A DNA stretch of 42,358 nucleotides from a virus. The DNA is taken from positions 1-42,358 of IMG/VR virus record IMGVR_UViG_3300025860_000033. One strand, 5' to 3'. This document shows, piece after piece, positions 7,274 to 22,713 of this stretch; within the stretch, counting starts at the first letter, position 1; each line of letters starts with the position of its first letter. The notes under the pieces are model-generated. The model did not search any database. It saw nothing but the letters and a program-made list of their open reading frames with translations, and was not told where the DNA came from. The translations under genes were made by a program, and so were the position numbers.

Positions 7274-9628
7274 CTAAAAGACATCTGGGATATCCGGGTC
7301 ATGCATATTTCCTATTTTATCCATGGCATTCTTCCAATTAAGATCCAAGAATTCATCATCATGAAAGTATAAATCTGTATTCTCTACTCTAGATTCTTCG
7401 AATGCATTAGTTAGTTTAGCTCTATCTTCTCTAAGTATCATTACCATATCCATAGCTGACACCCTATCCGTATTTATATCTGGATTCCAAGCTATACATT
7501 CCTTGATATATCCAATGCTTCTTATTCTTCTTAGATTAGGAACTGAATATTCTTTGTGCTCCTTAGTGTCTTCATCATATCTCTCCTCAAGGTATGGTGA
7601 TAACATCCATTGTCTTTGAAGAGTCTTCCCTAGTTTTATTACCTCAGCAGTTGTTCTAGTTCCTTTACTCCTATTCCCGAAGAGGTTTGACTTAACAATC
7701 TCCATATCTCTAAGAATATCTGGGCTATCTGCCAACAAGTGTAATGCATTATTATTAGAGAAGTAAGAAAATAATCCTTTTAAGTTATTCTCGTAATTAG
7801 CTTCAGCATTATAAAAGGTTGTTAATCTTAAGCAAGTCTCATAAAATTCATCTGCCATGTTAGGCCTACCGGTATATTCTGCAACTATCTTATCTGTCCA
7901 CAAGTCAAACACTATTATAGAAGCTAAAGACCCACCAATTGTGTAATCATTATCAATAGGGTCAATCCCACAAATATATCTGTTTTGAAATATATTCCCA
8001 TCTCTATCTTTATTAGGCATTTCGAATATTTCGACAGCTCCACTAGAATCTCTAGTTCCTCTAACTCTAAATGGAAACTCTCTAATTGGAATTGCCTGAT
8101 TATCATTATTCCATTTTACTAATCCAGCTTCATCATAAGTAAAGTGTCCAACCCAGTGAGAATCCACGAAACCTTGCATCTCCGGCATTATATCTTCTAA
8201 ATAGTCTCTCAAGTCAGCTACAGGAAATGCTGTCCCCTCTGTCCTCATAATAGCTTCTTGAGGAGTAATAGGTTCCTCAGCCTTAGCTTGGACTATTGCA
8301 TTAGGATCTGATGATCCTGTTTTAATTGTAGTTCTCTTTTTATTAATCTCAATAAGTGCACCAATAACATCACTGTTGCCATCCTTATCCATCTTGCCTC
8401 TAAAGTTTAGGTAAGTTCCAAAGAAGAAGGCACATTTACCTTTTCCATTAGTATTTTTGTCAAACACATTGGGCATAGAATGAATATTGTAACCTGATGA
8501 ATTGTAGAAGATTTCTTCTAATCCCTCAAATGCACCCCCTTCAACACCACCAGTACCACCTGCCATCATAAATCCAAATGCAAATCCAGATTCCTCTACA
8601 GAGGGTTGAGCAATTTTCCATGCTGTTAAGAAGTCATCAAATTTACCAGCTTCTTCCCATAGTACTAATGCACCCCTTTTACCCCTTGCCTTCTGTGGGT
8701 CATTCTTTAAGGTAACTCCCATCACTTCATTCAAGACTCCAACTTCAGTACCTCTAGAGTTATCTTTTCTACCCATTCTCCAATGCATATCATTAAGAGA
8801 ATCTTTCAGGGTTCTTATTCTTGGCCATGGTGTAGTTCCCGCGCACCAGTCTATAACTGACACGAACTTATTTAATATACCATCCTTAGTTAAATATTCT
8901 TTCTCATTTGCAATAGCAAATGATTTTACCTTCTTTTTAGCTTTAGCAGTATCTCCAAGTACAAAGTTTTTGGCCAACATGTTACTAGCTTTTACAGAGT
9001 ATCCACATCCCCTTCTCTTAAGATTAGCTCCATGCATACCTAGTGCTCTACACTGTTCTACATAATGAAAGAACCAGTAGTCTGCATCATATACATAGGC
9101 AAATCCCTCTACCCTGTCAGCTTGCTTAGTTCCTTTCTTAATCTCAGCTCTTAATAATGGAGCATAGTTTAACTGGAAGTAATAATTACCTGGAATCCAC
9201 TCACCATCACTCTGTCTTATGTAACCTTCTCTACATCTTCTTGCTTCCTCTGCCCAGAACTTAAAGTATTCTGAGTTAGGGTTCTTATTAGGAAATATCT
9301 TGGTATAACATCCGTGATTCTCAAAATGAATTGCTGCAGGTCTAAAGTAATTCATATCAGTTAAGATATGTGGATTAGTTAAATCTACTGCTATTGTTCC
9401 TTTTGGATCAAGCTTTCTTGGTTCTAAATCTGGGTCATCTGATGTCTCTGGAAGTAATGGGTTGTCCCATCTGTCTAAATCTTTACAGTACTTTCTAGTT
9501 GGGCTAGCTAAGTTCTGTATAAACATGATACTATCAATTGAGTCTAGTAGGTCTTGCTTCTCTATACGAGGCATTGCTTCTAGTAACTCTGTAGTAAGTT
9601 TTGTTTGTATGCTGTTAAATTCCCTCAT
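7274..9628 (-). CDS. terL: Terminase large subunit (TerL)
   Basis: A 784-residue packaging motor. The ATPase half has a non-standard P-loop KRRGCGYSVK (204-213), Walker B with catalytic Glu in ALVLWEEAG (320-328) and a coupling motif MMAGGTGG (354-361). The C-terminal RNase H-like nuclease has acidic residues in GIDPID (554-559), NYEN (about 611-614) and DRVSAMDM (about 721-728). WIPGNYYFQLNYAPL (144-158) resembles the conserved N-terminal region of crAss-like TerL proteins. The start shares a base with the stop of the upstream 184-residue gene, indicating translational coupling. TerL pumps concatemeric DNA through the portal into the prohead and cuts it. Confidence 0.92.
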   Translation of the reverse strand: MREFNSIQTKLTTELLEAMPRIEKQDLLDSIDSIMFIQNLASPTRKYCKDLDRWDNPLLPETSDDPDLEPRKLDPKGTIAVDLTNPHILTDMNYFRPAAIHFENHGCYTKIFPNKNPNSEYFKFWAEEARRCREGYIRQSDGEWIPGNYYFQLNYAPLLRAEIKKGTKQADRVEGFAYVYDADYWFFHYVEQCRALGMHGANLKRRGCGYSVKASNMLAKNFVLGDTAKAKKKVKSFAIANEKEYLTKDGILNKFVSVIDWCAGTTPWPRIRTLKDSLNDMHWRMGRKDNSRGTEVGVLNEVMGVTLKNDPQKARGKRGALVLWEEAGKFDDFLTAWKIAQPSVEESGFAFGFMMAGGTGGVEGGAFEGLEEIFYNSSGYNIHSMPNVFDKNTNGKGKCAFFFGTYLNFRGKMDKDGNSDVIGALIEINKKRTTIKTGSSDPNAIVQAKAEEPITPQEAIMRTEGTAFPVADLRDYLEDIMPEMQGFVDSHWVGHFTYDEAGLVKWNNDNQAIPIREFPFRVRGTRDSSGAVEIFEMPNKDRDGNIFQNRYICGIDPIDNDYTIGGSLASIIVFDLWTDKIVAEYTGRPNMADEFYETCLRLTTFYNAEANYENNLKGLFSYFSNNNALHLLADSPDILRDMEIVKSNLFGNRSKGTRTTAEVIKLGKTLQRQWMLSPYLEERYDEDTKEHKEYSVPNLRRIRSIGYIKECIAWNPDINTDRVSAMDMVMILREDRAKLTNAFEESRVENTDLYFHDDEFLDLNWKNAMDKIGNMHDPDIPDVF

Positions 9629-10459: not shown

Positions 10460-11023
10460 TTATAGTGGTTTTATTATTATCTCATTAGTGTTTGACACAT
10501 ACATTACATCTCTTTCATTTAGATAAATATATTCAATTCCCTCTACTACTTTGATAGGTAAATCATAGCTGTACTCTTTGTTTACTTTTTGAGCTACTGT
10601 ATCAGATAGTCTTCTTTTAAAATTTTCTACATTAATAACAACTTCCCATCCTGGCTCAATCTCTCTTACAGATCCTCCTACCGCCAAAACTATTTGTGTA
10701 TCTGAGAAATCTACCTCTAAGTCTGTATCACCATTTGATCCAAATGATGCAGTTGGTAGATACAGTCCATTCTCAGTTAATTTATTTCTTCTCGCTGATA
10801 AAAATAAATTATTAAACAATGGCTTAATATGAGGAGGTAAAGTCTCTATTTCTAGAGACTTATTATATAACTCCTCTTTTGTATTGATCTCCTCTGATAA
10901 GACGTTATTAGTATCAAATACAAGTCCAGAGGACTCTCTTTTAGATACATCTCTGTTTCTAAAAAAATCCTTTATTCCTTCCTCTGCAGCTTCTTGCTGT
11001 TTGACATTAGATAAATCTTTCAT
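10460..11023 (-). CDS. GroES-like co-chaperonin
   Basis: A 187-residue protein. Its middle and C-terminus follow the GroES pattern: HIKPLFNNLFLS (65-76) aligns with the first GroES strand, NGLYLPT (85-91) precedes a flexible mobile-loop-like segment (92-108), QIVLAVGGSV (110-119) matches the VLAVGxG core, PGWEVVI (124-130) the VGDxVxF turn, and IYLNERDVMYV (166-176) the closing strand. An extra N-terminus of about 60 residues and an insertion near 131-160 make it larger than the roughly 97-residue bacterial GroES. A groEL gene lies in the same operon 1.5 kb upstream, so it probably caps the phage chaperonin, as T4 gp31 does for host GroEL. The call is from pattern alignment by eye. Confidence 0.68.
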   Translation of the reverse strand: MKDLSNVKQQEAAEEGIKDFFRNRDVSKRESSGLVFDTNNVLSEEINTKEELYNKSLEIETLPPHIKPLFNNLFLSARRNKLTENGLYLPTASFGSNGDTDLEVDFSDTQIVLAVGGSVREIEPGWEVVINVENFKRRLSDTVAQKVNKEYSYDLPIKVVEGIEYIYLNERDVMYVSNTNEIIIKPL

Positions 11024-12554: not shown

Positions 12555-14314
<1,760 letters not shown>

Positions 14315-20276: not shown

Positions 20277-20330
20277 AGAGGTGCTCAGTTGGTGAGTGTT
20301 AATTAATGGTTCGAATCCATTTCACCTCTC
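20277..20330 (+). ncRNA. tRNA-like RNA lacking an anticodon arm
   Basis: AGAGGTG (20277-20283) pairs with CACCTCT (20323-20329) as an acceptor. CTCAGTTGGTGAG (20284-20296) is a typical D arm. AATGG-TTCGAAT-CCATT (20305-20321) is a perfect T arm. Only eight bases lie between D and T arms, so there is no anticodon arm. At about 54 nt it cannot decode. It begins 13 bases after the stop of paralogue B. Confidence 0.65.
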
Positions 20331-21576: not shown

Positions 21577-21683
21577 AGAGAGTTGGCGGAATTGGTAGAC
21601 GCAAGTGAGGTATTATATTCCGCAGATGTAGCAGCTGATGGAGTAAGTATAATACTATACAGGTTCGAATCCTGTACTCTCAC
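21577..21683 (+). ncRNA. tRNA-Leu-like RNA with abnormal anticodon region
   Basis: The acceptor AGAGAGT pairs with ACTCTCA except at the first position. TGGCGGAATTGGTAGACGC (21584-21602) is the usual bacterial tRNA-Leu D region and ACAGG-TTCGAAT-CCTGT (21659-21675) a perfect T arm. Between them there is no five-pair stem with seven-base loop. Instead GTATTAT/ATAATAC (21610-21616 with 21649-21655) forms a seven-pair helix around 32 bases. It could be a tRNA with a remodelled or interrupted anticodon arm. Confidence 0.62.
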
Positions 21684-21696
21684 ATAAAATTAAATT

Positions 21697-21867
21697 AAGC
21701 TCTTTGCTTGAAGATAAATAGTAATATCGGGAATGGTCGGCTAGATATTACAAACTACATTTCAGAGTAGTTGTTGTTTATTGAATGATAATTCGTGGAA
21801 AATTGAACCACTCTGTCAAAAATATCATTATCCCACATAAACTGAATAGTGGAGCAAAGAGTTTTTT
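21697..21867 (+). ncRNA. Structured RNA family E/H, copy 1
   Basis: AAGCTCTTTGC (21697-21707) pairs with GCAAAGAGTTT (21854-21864), eleven pairs including one G-U. It ends in a T-tract, as a free RNA might. Motifs shared with copy 2 (22137-22355) are TTGAAGATAAA at the 5' side, GGGAATGG, GTTTATTG, ATAATTCGT/ATAATCGT, and TATCCCAC near the 3' side. GGGA and TCCC may pair. The unit follows the tRNA-Leu-like element, as copy 2 follows another tRNA-like element. Confidence 0.65.
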
Positions 21868-21874
21868 AAAATAT

Positions 21875-21968
21875 AAAGGTTATATGGCTCGTCATATTGT
21901 ATTAAGTTAAAAGTTAGCTTGAAGGAAATTTTCAACAATTACAATGATATGCAACCTAAGTGACCTTT
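21875..21968 (+). ncRNA. Helix-closed RNA unit
   Basis: AAAGGTTA (21875-21882) pairs with TGACCTTT (21961-21968), eight pairs with one G-U. Within it CATATTGTA can pair with TACAATGATATG, and TTGAAGGAAATTTTCAA is a hairpin. Flanked by TTTTAAAATATAAA spacers on both sides. Confidence 0.52.
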
Positions 21969-21976
21969 TAAAATAT

Positions 21977-22055
21977 AAAGTACAAGTAAACAGTTATACT
22001 CTAACAGGTGAGTTCTAGTGGGTTGAATCATTGTAACGTTAGTTGCTTGTACTTT
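21977..22055 (+). ncRNA. Helix-closed RNA unit
   Basis: AAAGTACAAG (21977-21986) pairs perfectly with CTTGTACTTT (22046-22055), ten pairs. At 79 nt it is tRNA-sized, with no cloverleaf. Spacers TTTTAAAATATA and TTTAAAATA flank it. Confidence 0.55.
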
Positions 22056-22060
22056 AAAAT

Positions 22061-22125
22061 AGAGAGTGATAATAGGTCAGGCAGTGGTACGCTATTTGTC
22101 GCAGGTTCGAATCCTGTACTCTCTA
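22061..22125 (+). ncRNA. tRNA-like RNA with one arm in place of D and anticodon arms
   Basis: Acceptor AGAGAGT/ACTCTCT (22061-22067 with 22118-22124) is perfect and T arm GCAGG-TTCGAAT-CCTGT (22101-22117) is canonical. The 33 bases between them are too short for two arms; GATAATAG pairs imperfectly with CTATTTGTC to make a single arm with loop GTCAGGCAGTGGTACG. It has no anticodon arm. The 3' half is nearly identical to that of the element at 21577. Confidence 0.62.
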
Positions 22126-22136
22126 CAAATAAAATT

Positions 22137-22357
22137 AAGCTCTTTGATTGAAGATAAACAATATAGGCGTTGGGAATGGGAGAGGGTGAAAGGCTCTCTT
22201 GATATAAAACTGTATCAGCAGTTGTGTTTATTGTAGATGTATAATCGTTAGCATATAGGCTCCATGAGAGCATTGAAATGCACTGGATGCGCTCCAGAAG
22301 AGATTGGTGAAAATCCAATACAAACATATCCCACTGAAATTTGGGCAAAGAGTTTTT
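22137..22357 (+). ncRNA. Structured RNA family E/H, copy 2
   Basis: AAGCTCTTTG (22137-22146) pairs with CAAAGAGTTT (22346-22355), followed by T's. It is about 50 nt longer than copy 1. Shared motifs are TTGAAGATAAA, GGGAATGG, GTTTATTG, ATAATCGTTA and TATCCCAC-TGAA. Extra hairpins are present here: GAGAG/CTCTC after GGGAATGG, and ATTGG-TGAAAAT-CCAAT near the 3' end. Preserved motifs with changed helices suggest a functional RNA. Confidence 0.66.
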
Positions 22358-22606: not shown

Positions 22607-22713
22607 AAACTCTCATCCAATTGCAGGTGATTTAGACTATACGAGGTGAAGCAGTGAACTCTGCCGTCATAATTAGTTAGCTGTCAAGGTGCAACCTTGT
22701 GAGAGTTTTTTTT
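22607..22713 (+). ncRNA. Helix-closed RNA unit ending in a T-tract
   Basis: AAACTCTCA (22607-22615) pairs with TGAGAGTTT (22700-22708), followed by five more T. A hairpin CAAGG-TGCAA-CCTTG precedes the 3' strand. The long-range end helix plus T-tract matches the style of the E/H family, though the sequence differs. Confidence 0.55.

Follow-up and report, generated by a model that had tools for sequence, protein, structure and literature searches.

Two RNAs of a crAss-like phage, E and H, belong to a widespread family of folded noncoding RNAs in which the core is under selection and discrete modules are exchanged between phages. The family is apparently undescribed, as judged by Rfam 15 and the open-access literature. 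Its most unusual feature, missed by the preliminary description made from the sequence alone, is that two internal modules are replaced wholesale and independently of each other.

Position and structure of E and H

The stretch of DNA analysed (the window) is a virus record of 42,358 bases that encodes a portal (phrog_6547) and a terminase (phrog_6681), both of crAss type. A phage GroEL-like chaperonin was also encoded at 12555-14138 (phrog_5725, E 1e-143; Pfam Cpn60_TCP1). E and H both lie on the + strand within a long, mostly noncoding stretch at ~20.2-24.3 kb, between two oppositely directed gene blocks, and each starts 13-15 nt 3' of a tRNA-like element. Extents are given for the full unit from P1 to P1'.

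RNA E (subtype 1) occupies 21697-21864. The P1 5' strand AAGCUCUUUGC (21697-21707) is paired with the 3' strand GCAAAGAGUUU (21854-21864), a helix that covaries across the family, and the P2 5' strand GAUAAAU (21713-21719) is paired with GUUUAUU (21776-21782). Between them lie variable module 1 (var1, the P2a hairpin, 21720-21752), which includes GGGAATGG, and the P3 hairpin (21753-21772; loop AUUUCAGA), of which UUCAG kisses the P5 loop. Variable module 2 (var2, the P4 domain, 21783-21832) is followed by the P5 hairpin CCAC-AUAAACUGAAUA-GUGG (21833-21852; loop CUGAA). RNA H (subtype 2) occupies 22137-22355 and has the same parts in the same order: P1 (22137-22146 paired with 22346-22355), P2 (GAUAAAC at 22153-22159 paired with GUUUAUU at 22226-22232), var1 (22160-22207), the P3 hairpin AACUG-UAUCAG-CAGUU (22208-22223), var2 (P4 domain, 22233-22329) and the P5 hairpin CCCA-CUGAAAUU-UGGG (22330-22345), whose loop CUGA kisses UCAG of P3. 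Both RNAs were matched by the family covariance models, H at 78.5 bits (E 3.5e-14) and E at 60.3 bits (E 4.3e-10); these scores are not independent, as the set of 28 sequences used to build the model included both RNAs, and E-values from the family models are rough. Unconstrained folding of E yielded the family core (P1, P2, P2a, P3 and P5) at z -3.3, with 0 of 200 shuffles as good; by folding energy H alone was marginal (z -1.65).

The preliminary description had placed two copies of order-conserved motifs at exactly these positions and had read them as a functional RNA with variable helices. The motifs recur in independent phage contigs and in family-model matches, so that chance is excluded. 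Homologues and covariation lend strong support to the reading as a functional, folded RNA family. Its proposed GGGA/UCCC pairing was wrong: GGGAATGG sits in a variable module and TATCCCAC in one strand of P5. The latter contains the P5 5' strand, for which the partner is TGGG (H) or GTGG (E) just 5' of P1', not GGGA; the former, taken for a conserved core motif, is part of var1, occurs in E, in members L020 and L240 and partly in H, and is missing in most relatives. To call E and H a simple local duplication is likewise misleading, since they represent two subtypes and the closest relative of E found, L020, comes from another phage (94% identity over 100 nt).

Homologue search and distribution

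IMG/VR was scanned with three exact patterns taken from separate regions of the RNA (5' end, 3' end and P3), which returned overlapping sets of contigs. An initial pattern, TTGAAGATAAA..GGGAATGG, had returned 42 contigs, of which only L020 was homologous; the other matches were due to chance and fell for the most part in coding regions. Manual segmentation of the homologues gave a consistent order of elements, and an additional scan with the six P3-loop bases left free recovered a third subtype. Covariance model R1 (28 members) gave 83 matches above 30 bits. A finder requiring P1, P2 and P5 pairing retained 68 members with identical-module copies removed and 101 copies without removal. The 101 copies, from pattern scans and covariance models, are 72 distinct by module pair and lie nearly all in virus contigs, which makes the observation larger than first reported. 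Lengths range from 134 to 336 nt (median 194), with a few segmentations imperfect (L125, L101). Because IMG/VR was searched by exact patterns only, these counts understate how widely the family occurs and favour close relatives.

Only one of 395 Flavobacteriales genomes contained a member, in a Lutibacter MAG contig. A crAss-type terminase profile was matched in 20 of 31 records tested (two only weakly), and 11 gave no match. Ten crAss-like or related phage genomes (crAss001, DAC15, frurule, cr111_1, cr112_1, cr7_1, CrAssphage ZA, bajarodcaudo virus 1, Fpv20 and FPSV-S29) were searched and had no significant match (best E 0.03-0.07). There is usually one copy per phage record; besides the window, two copies were seen in the contigs of L088/L089 (7517-7693 and 8190-8384), L113 and L251, and in the L088 contig the two agree in their var1 end and differ in var2. 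Rfam 15 (4227 families) gave no match over E or H at the gathering threshold or at E<=5, nor over the loci of 12 other members at E<=3. No description of the family was found in the open-access literature.

Three cultured Cellulophaga phages carry a member: phi4:1, phi17:2 and phi14:2. Against named phages, blastn returned the phi4:1/phi17:2 group only. In phi4:1 and phi17:2 (Lightbulbvirus) nearly the same RNA occupies the same site, with flanks 99% identical, and overlaps an annotated hypothetical gene; the phi4:1 copy spans 129599-129792 (~195 nt), and that of phi14:2 begins at 1285 and measures ~325 nt. The member in phi14:2 (Crassvirales) lies directly 3' of an OmpA-domain gene, as in phi4:1, and RefSeq has withdrawn two ORFs at this copy. 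Hypothetical proteins overlie the RNA at L045 4941-5099 (phi4:1 gp168) and phi14:2 1321-1619; the proteins annotated there are probably spurious. Phages phi4:1 and phi14:2 are unrelated and infect the same host species, Cellulophaga baltica; their RNAs have var1 in common (4 substitutions and 1 indel over 56 nt) and not var2.

Core fold and loop-loop contact

The scaffold is closed by P1, a helix of ~10 bp. Within it lie P2, which encloses P2a and the P3 hairpin, then P4 and the P5 hairpin. P5 is stacked beside P1, and P2a and P4 form the var1 and var2 arms. Changes on both sides were found in 24 of 39 pairs (38 distinct sequences), against 14.0 +/- 1.4 in shuffled and at most 12 in slid versions. 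Across the family alignment 93.9% of cells were paired, a figure inflated for P1, P2 and P5, by whose pairing members were selected; P4 and the kiss were not used in selection. P1 occurs as AAACUCUUUG/CAAAGAGUUU, AAGUUCUUUG/CAAAGAACUU, AAAUCACUUG/CAAGUGAUUU and other variants, with a wholly different helix in L112, and P2, GAUAAAC/GUUUAUU, becomes GACAAAC/GUUUGUU in L087, L088 and L090.

The P3 loops UAUCAG, UUUCAG, UAUUAG and UACUAG are complementary to P5 loops CUGA, CUGA, CUAA and CUAG, respectively, so that UCAG/CUGA changes to UUAG/CUAA (as in L052) and to CUAG/CUAG. At least four contiguous Watson-Crick kiss pairs were present in 66 of 68 members, compared with a mean of 41 and a maximum of 51 when partners were dealt anew, and this complementarity had been used by no selection step. 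In 10-11 sequences two of the kiss pairs have switched jointly, one from U-A to C-G and the other from C-G to U-A. P1, P2, P3, P5 and the P3-P5 kiss are kept by compensatory changes, as in a structured RNA family. A protein-coding gene is not indicated: across members there is no consistent ORF, and module lengths vary regardless of frame. An intrinsic terminator was ruled out, the U run belonging to P1.

Replacement and exchange of the variable modules

Both modules are hypervariable; var1, between P2 and P3, measures ~25-170 nt and var2, between P2' and P5, ~10-105 nt. In most pairs of members both were unrelated, with median identities of 0.52 and 0.55, equal to background. Either module may nevertheless be common to two members without the other: E and L020 have var1 in common (a 32-nt module) and not var2, and L057 and L020 have var2 and not var1. 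Further recurring modules were found for var1 in L088/L090 and L081/L102 and for var2 in L087/L090 and L111/L123. Sharing crosses subtypes, as in the var1 of L046/L075 and L057/L082, and L240, of subtype 3, has the E var1 loop GGGAATGGTCGGCTA.

Flank identity was used to calibrate these comparisons. Where flanks were >=97% identical the modules were the same; at ~95-97% they were either identical or replaced; below ~95% they were mostly at background similarity, with one module intact in some pairs. For L111/L125 (flanks 94.7%) and L087/L090 (flanks 96.1%) var1 was at background similarity; for L111/L123 (flanks 87%) var2 was identical over 65 of 65 positions, and for L104/L141 (flanks 94.9%) both modules were identical. 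In the informative cases of intact modules 0 differences were seen, against 3-8.5 expected by flank calibration; the pairs are few and not independent, and the combined significance is moderate. L081/L102 and L020/window are alike in RNA sequence and have no adjacent flank in common, the RNA gene being a discrete unit found in unrelated surroundings. A module is passed on unaltered or substituted as a whole, and the two are exchanged between phages independently of each other; this all-or-none pattern speaks, moderately, for modules that are functional in themselves and against neutral arms. The replacement patterns may reflect diversifying selection and could also be produced by recombination hot spots at the conserved core.

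Sense and antisense matches of var1 and var2 to the surrounding phage DNA showed no excess over shuffles, and the modules were rejected as antisense to their own phage. Canonical tRNA T-arm hairpins (GGTTCGA) were observed in the var1 of L249 (~7316-7381) and the var2 of L218 (~10690-10820), as if taken from tRNAs.

Genomic context and tRNA neighbours

Of 61 cases, 51 have the RNA in the same sense as the upstream ORF, in 22 of these <=20 nt past the stop codon, and ~13 members end 12-36 nt 5' of the next ORF. Across the 72 distinct loci no neighbour gene is held in common; the largest cluster of flanking ORFs covers 9 loci, and a shared partner gene was ruled out on these clusters.

A tRNA lies within 3 kb in 24 of 83 matches, in some at a spacing of 4-16 nt. 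One group of contigs carries arrays of up to 24 tRNAs in a single locus, and within these the RNA is flanked by tRNA-Glu and tRNA-Ala, separated from it by 10-13 nt. In the window, a tRNA-Leu-like element precedes E (21577-21683, + strand; 29.3 bits to RF00005, threshold 29), and a tRNA-like element apparently without an anticodon arm precedes H (22061-22125, + strand; 24.3 bits against the same threshold, delimited by an acceptor and T-arm scan and fold). The two match in the T arm and acceptor 3' strand, in line with the almost identical 3' halves that had been described. The link to tRNA-like units drawn at that stage applies to the window and a minority of relatives and fails for the many members right after protein genes; universal tRNA punctuation was rejected, only some members adjoining a tRNA or tRNA-like element. 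Genes for tmRNA occur in RNA-carrying phage contigs at L098 980-1359, ~90 nt upstream of the family RNA, and at L256 3156-3517.

Other structured elements

Elements resembling tRNA-Leu stand beside members in the window (21577-21683), L057 (735-836), L094 (1580-1690) and L047 (243-362); all keep D and T arms, and unrelated middles replace the anticodon region. A further tRNA-like sequence at 20278-20329 of the window has an acceptor stem and D and T arms, apparently without an anticodon arm (20.0 bits to RF00005). Unit I (22607-22708) is a second RNA scaffold, with the closing helix AAACUCUCA/UGAGAGUUU and a 3' hairpin AAGG-UGCAA-CCUU, the loop of which is complementary to an upstream UUGCA. 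Each of its 8 members carries a completely different insert (33-85 nt); for most members the unit ends were set by the search pattern. Two RNA-like units lie between E and H, at 21877-21975 and 21980-22058, closed by AAAGGU/ACCUUU and AAAGUACAAG/CUUGUACUUU.

Comparison with known RNAs

Riboswitches such as the cobalamin class combine a conserved core, a loop-loop contact and variable peripheral arms. The E/H family resembles them in these features and differs in having no conserved downstream gene, no Rfam match and modules swapped as units; among the 72 distinct loci the position upstream of a defined gene expected of a cis-regulatory RNA or riboswitch was not found. Some members have tRNA neighbours at 4-16 nt and a few modules have T-arm-like hairpins, but E and H gave no match to RF00005 and have a five-helix core, not a cloverleaf. 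ROOL and GOLLD are structured phage or prophage RNAs of unknown function, often beside tRNA islands (PMC12286853). They are similar in being phage-encoded, structured and near tRNA islands and in having kissing loops; they are several hundred nt or more in length, whereas the E/H family has another secondary structure at ~134-336 nt, carries two independently exchanged modules and matches neither their Rfam models nor their large size.

Interpretation

The wholesale replacement of two variable arms suggests a rapidly moving conflict in which this RNA takes part. We favour, with a little less than even confidence, a trans-acting RNA for conflict with hosts or rival phages, in which an unchanging core displays specificity modules that change. 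The fold and the module exchange are established; expression, partner and purpose are inferred as follows. The RNA would be transcribed in sense with upstream genes or within tRNA arrays and cut from the longer transcript, with tRNA or tRNA-like neighbours, where present, supplying the cuts. In trans, an invariant partner (a protein or RNA of host or phage) would recognise the constant core, and specificity would come from the two modules and change under selection from host defences, host variants or competing phages.

If the RNA acts in trans and the core does everything, the arms are peripheral and their exchange is neutral recombination at the core. Peripheral helices of many large RNAs do vary in length and sequence, and a conserved core flanking both modules would favour recombination; drift, however, is not seen, modules at 95-97% flank identity being identical or at background (with moderate significance), and unrelated scaffolds in the same phages also have hypervariable inserts. 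Neutral arms are judged unlikely. A cis-acting structure for processing, stability or translation control of neighbouring genes would fit the sense orientation between genes, the ~13 members placed 12-36 nt before the next ORF and the short U-tract into which the P1 3' strand continues, but the U run is largely that strand itself, no gene consistently adjoins, and in tRNA arrays there are tRNAs on both sides; we regard such a role as quite improbable.

Very little weight is given to a ROOL- or GOLLD-like assembly made of RNA only, a multimer with arms pointing into or out of the particle. In its favour, the RNA is phage-encoded and often near tRNA islands, as described for those families (PMC12286853), and its kissing loops might in principle join separate molecules; against it stand the far smaller size (134-336 nt), the lack of an Rfam match and a geometry that fits an internal kiss. 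That the RNA is a selfish mobile gene, ribozyme- or RT-borne, spreading between phages without serving them, agrees with its being a discrete unit in unrelated flanks, but it has no conserved RT or endonuclease neighbour and usually occurs once per phage record; this origin is judged more improbable still.

Because unit I and the tRNA-Leu-like elements follow the same plan, it is conceivable, though on the whole doubtful, that they form a general RNA display system, in which several unrelated scaffolds (the E/H family, unit I at 22607-22708 and the tRNA-Leu-like elements with a replaced anticodon region) would each present a hypervariable, interchangeable module. Its logic would be comparable to antigenic or specificity-domain swapping in proteins, but made of RNA.

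Few groups of Bacteroidota phages are as well known as the crAss-like phages, and to our knowledge RNAs of this kind in them have been given no function. The family is widespread in aquatic Bacteroidota phages and present in three cultured phages, where it is open to deletion and probing. A constant scaffold with two wholesale-replaced modules is an unusual mode of evolution for an RNA. If the modules set specificity, the family would represent an RNA arm of phage-host or phage-phage conflict, invisible to protein-centred searches.
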